A stretch of DNA of 34,218 bases, taken from the NCBI GenBank assembly GCA_003599395.1, contig QZJX01000082.1, forward strand, positions 1 to 34,218, in the 5' to 3' direction. The notes under the pieces were generated by a model. The model was not told the DNA's origin and made no database searches. It was given only the letters and a program-made list of their open reading frames with translations. Shown here piece after piece: positions 9,096 to 32,187 of the stretch. Within the stretch, counting starts at the first letter, position 1, and each line of letters begins with the position of its first letter. This stretch comes from Ignavibacteriales bacterium. GTDB lineage: Bacteria > Bacteroidota > Ignavibacteria > Ignavibacteriales > Melioribacteraceae. The position numbers were made by a program, and so were the translations under genes.

Positions 9096-9314
9096 CTCCT
9101 TGATTTATCTCCGTAAATTATTGTAATATAATTCTTTACAAAACATCCCGCGCACGACTTTTATTTCACCAAACAATAGAACTCCGCCTTAAAAGAAGAC
9201 AATAAATAATGCTTTACGAAAAAATATTTCTTATATTTCCGCTAATTGGAAAATTGTTTATTTAATTAATTAAGGATGGTTGAAGTTAAGCTGATGATCC
9301 AAGCATGGCAATTA

Positions 9315-9331
9315 CCCCGACTAAGTCGGGG
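9315..9331 (+). repeat. CCCGA palindrome 1 inside RNase P RNA
   Basis: CCCCGAC-TAA-GTCGGGG, a 7-bp stem with a 3-base loop directly before the P4 strand; it occupies the P3 position. It belongs to a set of four related palindromes in the RNA. Confidence 0.7.
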
Positions 9332-9512
9332 AGGAAAGTCCGAACTCCGAAGAGCAGGGTGCCGGGTAACTCCCGGGGTCCGTGTTGCGAAAGCAGCCGG
9401 AAACGGCTAGTACCACAGAGAAGAGACTACCAGTCAACTGACTGGCAAAGGTGAAAAGGCGGGTTAAGAGCCCACCGCTCTGCTAGTAATGGCAGAGGTC
9501 CCTTTAAAGGGA

Positions 9513-9530
9513 ATCCCGACTTGTCGGGAT
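9513..9530 (+). repeat. CCCGA palindrome 2 inside RNase P RNA
   Basis: ATCCCGA-CTTG-TCGGGAT, a 7-bp stem with a 4-base loop. It follows a second small hairpin (TCCCTTTAAAGGGA) and lies in the P13/P14 area. Confidence 0.7.
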
Positions 9531-9626
9531 CAAGGTAAACCCCACTCGGAGCAAGGTCAAGCAGAAGGTTCCTTCTTTATTGAAGTACGGGCTGCTCGTC
9601 CGTTTACCTTCGGGTAGACCGCTTGA

Positions 9627-9646
9627 CCCCGATAGTAATATCGGGG
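9627..9646 (+). repeat. CCCGA palindrome 3 inside RNase P RNA
   Basis: CCCCGATA-GTAA-TATCGGGG, an 8-bp stem capped by a GNRA-type GTAA tetraloop. It could form a tetraloop-receptor contact in the folded RNA. Confidence 0.7.
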
Positions 9647-9664
9647 CTAGATAAATAATTGCCG

Positions 9665-9681
9665 TCCCGATTTTATCGGGA
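9665..9681 (+). repeat. CCCGA palindrome 4 inside RNase P RNA
   Basis: TCCCGAT-TTT-ATCGGGA, a 7-bp stem with a 3-base loop just before the conserved ACAGAA...GGCTTA segment, i.e. the P18/P19 position. Confidence 0.7.
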
Positions 9682-9740
9682 TTACAGAATTCGGCTTATA
9701 TGCTTGGTCGTTTAGCTTTGCTTCTCCAGTGTTAAACAAA

Positions 9741-29781: not shown

Positions 29782-30861
29782 ATGAAGAAGGTAGTAATTT
29801 CGTTCACTTTTTTGCTTTTTTCTTTAACTATTCAGTCTCAAATCGTAGTTACGCAAACCGATATAGAAAACCACTTACAAATCGGTAACGGAATTTTAAA
29901 TTATTCTGATACGATCGGAATAGACGTTGACATTGGAACACCCGGTGAAAATTCTTGGGATTTTGAAAATCACCCTTTCCATCTAGAGTTCGATGTAGAT
30001 GTTGTTGATCCGGGGTCTACTCCGAAGGCTGATTTATTTTCGTCTGCAACACATGCGTTAATTACCAATTATGATGTTGGACAAAATGAGGCTACATCAT
30101 ATACCTACCTGATCATCGAAGATGGTAACTATGGTGAAGATGGTCTTTATTTCATAGCCGGGGTGTCCAGTTCTACGTCAGAAGTTACAATTGAAAATGA
30201 TCCTCCTGGTAATATTTTACAGTTTCCGGTTAATTATCAAGATTCTTGGACGACCTCCCACGCAAAAATCACCACCACAGAACTAAACGGTGTTCCGATT
30301 TCAAATACAGAGGCAGAAGAAACCTCGTCAAAATTGGTGGATGGTTATGGCACAATCGTGCTGCCGGACGGAACCACCGAAGAAACCCTGAGAATAAAGA
30401 TTGAGGGAGAAAGAACCGTTAATGGTGATACCGAGGAAATCCTTTCGTTTATGTTTATTACACGCTCAGGCGCAAGTTTAACAGCGGTTGCCGACGATCC
30501 AAACGGATCGGATAACGGTGTAATTCAAACAGAACAAGTAAATTGGAATTATGGTAACGGTTCACCTTCTTCTGTTGATAAAATTGAAGAGCTTGCAAAT
30601 GATTTTGTATTATCACAAAACTATCCGAATCCATTCAATCCAACAACAAATATTCAATACTCTATTCCAAAAGCTTCTCATGTTTCGCTAAAAGTATATG
30701 ATGTTTTGGGCAACGAGGTTGCCACATTAGTAAATGAAAAACTTTCTTCGGGTGTTTATAACAGTAAGTTTGATGCATCAACTCTATCAAGCGGAATTTA
30801 TTTTTATACTTTGGAAGCCGGAAACTTTGTTACCACAAAAAAGCTCTCTTTAATTAAGTAA
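29782..30861 (+). CDS. T9SS cargo protein, tandem paralog 1
   Basis: A 359-residue secreted protein. A signal peptide (MKKVVISFTFLLFSLTIQSQ) is followed by a beta-rich domain of about 250 residues that I do not recognise, with 'ENSWDFENHPFHLEFD' near 55-70 and 'YGTIVLPDGTTEETLRIKIE' near 195-215, and then a T9SS type A sorting domain ('LSQNYPNPFNPTTNIQYSI' to 'TTKKLSLIK'). The fragment 'WDFENHP' matches 'WDFSGHP' of the downstream paralog. GAGGAG lies close before ATG 29782. It is probably exported through the T9SS and anchored at the surface; function unknown. Confidence 0.85.
   Translation: MKKVVISFTFLLFSLTIQSQIVVTQTDIENHLQIGNGILNYSDTIGIDVDIGTPGENSWDFENHPFHLEFDVDVVDPGSTPKADLFSSATHALITNYDVGQNEATSYTYLIIEDGNYGEDGLYFIAGVSSSTSEVTIENDPPGNILQFPVNYQDSWTTSHAKITTTELNGVPISNTEAEETSSKLVDGYGTIVLPDGTTEETLRIKIEGERTVNGDTEEILSFMFITRSGASLTAVADDPNGSDNGVIQTEQVNWNYGNGSPSSVDKIEELANDFVLSQNYPNPFNPTTNIQYSIPKASHVSLKVYDVLGNEVATLVNEKLSSGVYNSKFDASTLSSGIYFYTLEAGNFVTTKKLSLIK
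30586..30809 (+). repeat. T9SS sorting-domain DNA repeat, copy 1
   Basis: 224 bases that match 31912-32135 without gaps; by eye 12 positions differ (about 95% identity). The flanking cargo halves are far less similar. Confidence 0.85.
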
Positions 30862-31034: not shown

Positions 31035-31095
31035 TTGATTGAGATTACTTAAAATTGCTCATTCACTAATAATTAATCAAAAACGGAGGGCAACC

Positions 31096-32187
31096 GTGAA
31101 GAAATTTACATTTCTAATGTTTCTTATAGTTCTATTTCTTTCAACTCAAGCACAAGTCACAATTACTCAAGCTGATGTAGCCTCAACTCTTACTCTTGGC
31201 AAAACCGTTAAGACATATGCCGATACATTAAATACCAATGTAAATATCGGTGCAACCGGTCAAAGCAGCTGGGATTTCAGCGGGCATCCGCACCAATTAG
31301 AATTTGATGCCGAAAGCGTTAATCCGGGCTCATCTCCGGTCTCAGGAACATTTGGCTCAGCTAATTATGTAACTTATTCTCAGCCGACATTTGCGGGAGT
31401 TACATCAAACACCTGGGTACACCTTGGTCTAAGTGGAAACGCATACTCAGATTTGGGAACCTACACAGAGGCGGCTGCGGCTGGATTTACAACTAAAACG
31501 ACCATTCAAATGAATCCTGCGGAAGTAATAATGCAGTTGCCATTAACTTTTGGAGCAAGTTGGTCACACACCGGGACAAGAGATGTTGATGTTGAGATTG
31601 TCGGGATTCCTTTCCCTCAGTCTTATACAGTTGATGTTTCAGTTACCAGAACCGTTGACGCATGGGGTACATTAATTATGCCCGATGGCAGATCGGTTAA
31701 TGTTCTCAGAATTAAAATAGTAACCGAGCTAACGTCTAACGCAGGTGGAGTTCCGTCTTCTTCAACTGATCTGTCTTTTACATTTATTTCTCCTGACGGA
31801 AGCTCTCTTCATGTAAATGCCGTTGATGCAAATCAAGCTGATAACGGTGTTATATCGGCTAACCAAGTTTCGTGGAATTATGGAAGTGGCGCAACAAGTG
31901 TTGAACAGCTAGAAGAGCTTGCAAATGATTTTGTATTATCACAAAACTATCCGAATCCATTCAATCCAACAACAAACATTCAATACTCTATTCCAAAAGC
32001 TTCTCATGTTTCGTTAAAGGTATATGATGTTTTGGGCAACGAGGTTGCAACTTTAGTAAACGAAGAACTTTCATCGGGTGTTTATAATAGCAAGTTCGAC
32101 GCATCAACTCTATCAAGCGGAATTTATTTTTATACCTTAAAGGCGGATAATTTTACCGCAACGAAAAAATTAATGCTGGTTAAATAG
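31096..32187 (+). CDS. T9SS cargo protein, tandem paralog 2
   Basis: A 363-residue secreted protein. The start is set at GTG 31096 because GGAGGG precedes it and the signal peptide KKFTFLMFLIVLFLSTQAQ starts there; a TTG at 31039 would add 19 residues unlike a signal peptide. The body resembles the upstream paralog: 'QSSWDFSGHPHQLEFD', 'WGTLIMPDGRSVNVLRIKI' and 'DNGVISANQVSWNYGSG' line up with its counterparts. The C-terminus is a T9SS type A sorting domain ('LSQNYPNPFNPTTNIQYSI' to 'TKKLMLVK'), almost identical to that of paralog 1. Function unknown; probably a surface or secreted beta-rich protein. Confidence 0.85.
   Translation: MKKFTFLMFLIVLFLSTQAQVTITQADVASTLTLGKTVKTYADTLNTNVNIGATGQSSWDFSGHPHQLEFDAESVNPGSSPVSGTFGSANYVTYSQPTFAGVTSNTWVHLGLSGNAYSDLGTYTEAAAAGFTTKTTIQMNPAEVIMQLPLTFGASWSHTGTRDVDVEIVGIPFPQSYTVDVSVTRTVDAWGTLIMPDGRSVNVLRIKIVTELTSNAGGVPSSSTDLSFTFISPDGSSLHVNAVDANQADNGVISANQVSWNYGSGATSVEQLEELANDFVLSQNYPNPFNPTTNIQYSIPKASHVSLKVYDVLGNEVATLVNEELSSGVYNSKFDASTLSSGIYFYTLKADNFTATKKLMLVK
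31912..32135 (+). repeat. T9SS sorting-domain DNA repeat, copy 2
   Basis: Gap-free match to 30586-30809, offset 1326 bases, about 95% identical. Confidence 0.85.

Follow-up and report, generated by a model that had tools for sequence, protein, structure and literature searches.

CCCGA hairpins in the RNase P RNA of Melioribacteraceae: a natural case that suggests homogenisation between helices

Small palindromes and repeats occur inside functional RNA genes, among them the Rickettsia palindromic elements and the STRR repeats of cyanobacterial rnpB, and these are insertions. Covariation across the two sides of an RNA stem is commonly read as selection on pairing. If stem tips were copied from one stem to another, many compensatory changes could arise at once, the helices of one RNA would no longer count as separate lines of evidence, and both structure inference and phylogenies built on RNA could be biased. 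Template switching, according to one report, both creates RNA stems and repairs them (Monttinen and Loytynoja 2022, PMC8794818). Among the titles and abstract openings surveyed, none concerned palindrome spread or concerted evolution in the stems of bacterial RNase P RNA.

The stretch of DNA analysed here (the window, 34218 bases) comes from a genome of 2.45 Mb (G000), whose near relatives include a MAG called Melioribacter roseus and other Melioribacteraceae and Ignavibacteria MAGs. Its rnpB gene carries one short palindrome in four stems, and we consider how these stems may have come to be alike. Elsewhere in the window two adjoining ORFs (29782-30861 and 31039-32187) have closely similar C-terminal ends and both contain NYPNPFNPTT, a motif from which we presume them to be paralogous secreted proteins.

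The RNase P RNA gene and its CCCGA stems

The gene lies at 9295..9714 on the plus strand, as do all the hairpins described below, and the class A covariance model RF00010 matches it at full length (model 1-367, 246.1 bits against a gathering threshold of 100, E 3.7e-79). Helices were named (P3, P12, P14, P18, P19-like) from the Rfam structure and what we take to be the usual nomenclature. The CCCGA/TCGGG palindromes fall at 9316-9330 in the P3 hairpin (9315..9331, CCCCGAC-TAA-GTCGGGG), at 9515-9528 in the second of two extra hairpins after P14 (14b, 9513..9530, ATCCCGA-CTTG-TCGGGAT), at 9628-9645 in P18 (9627..9646, CCCCGATA-GTAA-TATCGGGG) and at 9666-9680 in a P19-like hairpin between P18 and the 3' strand of P2/P1 (9664..9682, GTCCCGAT-TTT-ATCGGGAT). 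A first-pass annotation had pointed to these four stems, and a search for CCCGA-N3..10-TCGGG confirms that they are the only matches in the window. Of the loops that it gave, GTAA is indeed the tetraloop of P18, but TAA, CTTG and TTT sit inside further pairs. The P12 hairpin (9430..9445, CCAGTC-AACT-GACTGG) is without CCCGA in the window, and the remaining neighbours are P14 (9478..9497), with a GTAA loop, and the first extra hairpin, 14a, immediately 3' of it (9499..9512, TCCCT-TTAA-AGGGA).

As helices, the four palindromic stems are ordinary for a class A RNase P RNA. In an alignment of 26 sequences, one per genus, P14 covaries and 14a has a consensus helix of four pairs with double changes at two of them. 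Stems of at least 6 bp form for 14b in 26 of the 29 genera and for P19 in 22 of 31, whereas shuffles reach this length in 11% and 7% of cases, respectively. RNAalifold did not predict 14b in the 26-sequence alignment and, run on 30 of 31 segments (the long P19 of G006 being omitted), gave no pair by which the covariation of 14b and P19 could be seen, because loop lengths vary. Both 14a and 14b are missing in several genera of the family, and neither was seen in relatives from other classes in which a script could delimit the region.

Shuffles of the window contained a mean of 0.05 palindromes and none of 100 reached four. The palindromes are RNA stems, however, and such stems are common in the rnpB of the family, which makes the surprise smaller: among 79 family genomes, that of the window counted, rnpB was matched in 73 and 69 genes were used, and 28 of these 69 have at least one CCCGA hairpin, with 42 in total. 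Left out were G172, which equals the window sequence over the compared part, G248, truncated near a contig end, and the fragments G247 and G254. Of the 69, the window's gene alone has four CCCGA hairpins in one molecule, a number reached in 1.8% of draws from a column-shuffled null for the family. A wider set of 54 genes, made up of the window's and those of 53 of 57 relatives, holds two further molecules with four (L029, which is G055, and L048, which is G042, both outside the family), giving 3 of 54. In this set, where gene ends were placed by text pattern and some slices extend beyond the gene, 27 genes together hold 45 occurrences of a CCCGA arm whose complement lies 3-10 bases off; no other ordering of the same five letters exceeds nine occurrences. 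The only commoner arms are the overlapping TCCCG (51) and CCGGG (49), the latter from a helix that almost every gene has. CCCGA is thus favoured in the RNase P RNA of this group, and the four of the window are a mild excess beyond that.

Likeness of stems within molecules and between species

Comparison of three species of the genus separates the four stems. The P3 hairpin has the same sequence in all three. P18 keeps its GTAA tetraloop throughout; its arm is CCCCGATA in the species of the window, the other two having (T)TCCAATA-GTAA-TATTGGA(A). Hairpins 14b and P19 are both of CCCGA type in G000 and in G002, the rnpB of which equals that of the Melioribacter roseus MAG, and both of TCCGTC type in G001, in which the arms differ although stem length is about constant among congeners. 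Three of the window's four stems are also present in G002, whose own 14b and P19 hairpins are identical over 18 bases, loop included. A second concerted case is found in genus g19, where G241 and G242 have TTCCA in both 14b and P19 and G020, G239 and G240 have CCCG in both. Since 14b and P19 differ together in two genera they look homogenised, on a comparison of tips, that is, of present-day sequences. P12 is closely like P19 in 9 of 30 genera, one of which (G024) is doubtful. Further likenesses are the GTCCGGC arms common to P12, 14b and P19 in G243, the GCCCTGA arms in P12 and P19 of G276 and the GTCCCGC arms in P12 and P19 of G269.

Other resemblances were noticed in passing. In G192 (L208), from another class of the phylum, the P19 hairpin TGCTGATG-GCAA-CATCGGCA is one base off the P18 hairpin TGCTGATG-GCAA-CATCAGCA of the same rnpB. 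The P14 of G271 (L257), TCCCGC-GTAA-GCGGGA, resembles its own P19, ATCCCGCT-TTT-AGCGGGAT; its congener G272 has a similar P14 and four other congeners have unrelated P14 arms.

The within-molecule Smith-Waterman (SW) similarity of hairpins was compared with that of pairings permuted across genera. A script chose the best-pairing hairpin of each region, so that some, P12 in long forms and P3 especially, may be misassigned; hairpins were obtained for P3 in 62 of 69 genes, for 14b in 53, for P18 in 62 and for P19 in 67, and P12 and 14 were not extracted from G265 and G249. Two pairs exceeded the permuted value, namely 14b-P19 (5.91 against 4.96, 28 genera) and P12-P19 (6.64 against 5.32, 30 genera), each with p=0.0002. 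None of the remaining 13 of the 15 pairs, all those with P18 and P14 among them, was significant after correction in the genus permutation, and P12-14b showed no excess (p=0.24). Both signals persisted when pairings were permuted within genera, which removes genus-level composition (p=0.013 for 14b-P19 and 0.039 for P12-P19), and when they were stratified by the GC content of P19, without L026 and L045 (p=0.0007 and 0.0001). With arms alone they held within genus (p=0.0026 and 0.0014) and weaker by genus (p=0.08 and 0.035). Near-identity (SW of at least 11) was found for P12-P19 in nine of 30 genera against 1.7 expected, the doubtful hairpin pick of G024 included, and for 14b-P19 in five of 28 against 1.25 expected (p=0.004). 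On whole hairpins, therefore, 14b-P19 and P12-P19 behave as paralogous stems under concerted evolution, being more alike within than between genomes. This much of the earlier proposal that gene conversion keeps the stems alike has stood, through the genus differences and the permutations, for 14b and P19; it has not for P3 and P18, which show no clear signal of being kept alike.

The signals for P3 were unstable. A P3-P19 link appeared in an earlier test (p=0.003) and was gone in the 69-gene family permutation (p=0.085), and was set aside; P3-14b gave p=0.016 in the family genus permutation and 0.0047 at one near-identity threshold. Outside the family P12-P19 fell short of significance in the order and class samples (n=18 each; p=0.33 and 0.31), and in the phylum sample its p=0.019 was no stronger than that of control pairs (0.031 and 0.003); the control pair P12-P18 gave p=0.016 in the class sample. 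Fixed-register identity of the 5' arms was weak for 14b-P19 (p=0.32 by genus, 0.028 within genus), and for P12-P19 it gave p=0.04 by genus and 0.51 within genus.

Copying, convergence and mobile palindromes

The reading that we tentatively prefer, and which we regard as nearly an even call, is that 14b and P19 are kept alike by recurrent short hairpin-to-hairpin copying, with P12 drawn in elsewhere and P3 and P18 not demonstrably copied. The route could be a template switch during replication or a short gene conversion (microconversion) between hairpins, and the microhomology could be supplied by a shared (G)TCC...GGA(T)-type hairpin base. This base is frequent in P12, 14b and P19 and as a rule missing in P3, P14 and P18, the exceptions being the P18 of genus g2, which has it, and the window's own P12, which does not. 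As a shared base is what copying by short homology needs, template switching or microconversion is favoured, though both this DNA-level mechanism and its direction are inferences. A copied tip would persist, because any perfect hairpin is tolerated at that place, with selection keeping the RNA folded, and in other genera P12 may be drawn into the same process. P3 and P18 would carry CCCGA because the word is frequent in the stems of this AT-rich family, not by demonstrable copying. What the sequences show directly is that stems are more similar than expected, that they differ in concert and that hairpins recur as exact copies; that a stem is copied onto another stem is our own reading of them.

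The main and strong rival is convergence, possible though the less probable, by which stems with a TCC/GGA-type base independently settle, with no copying, on a stable and AT-tolerant tip (CCCGA, with CTTG or TTTA loops). In agreement with it, CCCGA exceeds the column-independent expectation 2.2- to 3.3-fold in P12, 14b and P19, each separately, and PMC8794818 names CUUG as one of the stable loop families. Exact cross-helix identities of at least 16 bases join one of 558 same-molecule pairs, three of 1416 same-genus pairs and four of 36405 pairs from different genera; same-molecule and same-genus identities pooled give a Fisher p=0.0004, on pairs that are not independent, in favour of copying, and the four between genera are what convergence would produce. 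Loops within molecules are uncorrelated by genus (p=0.35 for 14b-P19 and 0.25 for P12-P19), and arms alone are weak by genus; because of the loops, whole-hairpin copying would be occasional at best. Convergence is the better account of the uncorrelated loops and the cross-genus identities. Copying is the better account of the within-molecule excess with unusual arms (CCGTC, CCGGC, TTCCA, CCCTGA) and of a hairpin in a decayed tRNA copy, neither of which convergence predicts; nor does it predict the weakness of control pairs, and CCCGA arms were seen in none of 30 tmRNA loci of relatives (27 placed exactly, three short ones sliced by guess).

The decayed tRNA copy lies in G002 (L264:570-650), between an intact tRNA-Gly and tRNA-Thr. 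It is a relic of tRNA-Gly in which a perfect palindrome, ATCCCGACTTGTCGGGAT, replaces the anticodon arm, and 17 bases, TCCCGACTTGTCGGGAT, are common to it and to the 14b and P19 of the same genome. The relic of G001 (L292:1-60, cut by the contig start) carries ATCCGTTAGCCAACGGAT, an echo of the TCCGTC arms of its own rnpB, so that TCCGT-type arms stand at 14b, P19 and the relic. Those of G020 and G028 (L290 and L291, near 1500) have CCCG arms and 5' halves that are no longer tRNA-like. The pattern is matched in four of 79 family genomes; G000 and G172 gave no match and have tRNA-Gly directly followed by tRNA-Thr in the cluster. The relics sit in a tRNA-Tyr/Gly/Thr/Trp cluster. They may point to hairpin swapping, in which short palindromes would move as DNA hairpins between RNA helices, both within rnpB and between genes, a reading that we hold to be unlikely; if true, it would be a genome-wide process of replacement type acting on RNA stems. 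Alternatively, the relics are putative attachment-site remnants, the palindrome having been brought by an integrated element.

Several insertions into rnpB of a small mobile palindrome, of the REP or the Rickettsia palindrome kind, are improbable, although palindromes are indeed plentiful elsewhere. CCCGA palindromes number 15 in G000 and 34 in the complete genome of the window's species, against three each for a reversed-letter control, and they exceed the control in 55 of 58 genomes, own included, the exceptions being G036, G038 and G040, all of family f2, with G011 nearly equal (12 against 11). In G002, exact matches of 17-18 bases to the window's 14b hairpin, edge included, occur at five places outside rnpB. 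In a 400-kb sample of G019 there is a REP-like intergenic family around CCCGA with the longer arms ATCCCGAA..TTCGGGAT, and in G239 (L268-L272) the exact core CCCGACTTGTCGGG lies within a REP-like repeat whose ends resemble GTCATTCCC and GGGAATCTT. Exact hairpin cores occur outside rnpB in G002, G020 and G239, but the 400-kb sample of G000 has two copies and no dispersed family or family-sized set. By eye, the 11 non-rnpB copies of G000 are five terminator-like hairpins, which would also suit convergence, two within long ORFs and four other or uncertain. Queries of 61 and 66 bases around P19 and 14b gave, outside rnpB, only matches of 14-28 bases in four genomes (E up to 10). Stems give way to others of much the same length that bring no extra flank, congeners keeping theirs at about one length, and a classical inserted element is unsupported because the stems are swapped, not lengthened. 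A dispersed mobile element is disfavoured as the main cause, on conserved stem length and the short outside matches. Of the initial suggestion that one palindrome had spread, the genomic excess and the exact recurrences in G002 hold up, while the terminator-like copies, the lack of a dispersed family in the 400-kb sample of G000 and the missing insertion footprint tell against it. With three of the four stems present in G002 and the palindrome in excess elsewhere, the suggestion is not refuted on its own terms.

In the G019 family (L126, L136, L139, L144, L145) GTCAT or ATGAC flanks are frequent. The genome-wide palindrome repertoire was also considered as a driver of rnpB arms, with mixed results: CCGTC:CCCGA counts in genus g1, rnpB included, are 30:12 in G001, 15:28 in G002, 26:34 in G172 and 20:15 in G000, and G241 has 37 CCCGA palindromes yet TTCCA in 14b and P19.

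Chance, in which four stems with C-rich 5' arms simply happen to share five base pairs, draws on the commonness of CCCGA hairpins and the column-shuffled null, stands for P3 and P18, and is disfavoured for 14b and P19 by their concerted difference in two genera and the permutation tests, so that as a full account it is very improbable. The further worry that identical stems risk mispairing is fair in that such pairing is possible, but it is not favoured, as isolated 14b and P19 arms give -21.9 when swapped against -23.7 when native, 1.8 kcal/mol weaker in sum.

Comparison with known systems

Taken as copying between helices, the stems of this family suggest a good natural case for inter-helix homogenisation, short of proof, with several instances (g1, g18, g19, g29, g52) in an essential ribozyme. 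The Rickettsia palindromic elements and STRR repeats are insertions, whereas none was seen in the window's rnpB. With class A RNase P RNA (RF00010) the gene shares a full-length match and differs in the extra hairpins 14a and 14b after P14. REP and other short dispersed bacterial palindromes, as described in the RepRanger paper (PMC12306157), are short palindromes in many copies, and such families occur in the relatives G019 and G239; here, by contrast, the palindrome occupies RNA helices and length is unchanged. Like the template-switch mutations of PMC8794818, copying at this locus would alter several bases of a stem, with compensation, in a single event; those mutations concern stems of rRNA and microRNA, whereas here helices that are distinct within one RNA come to resemble one another.
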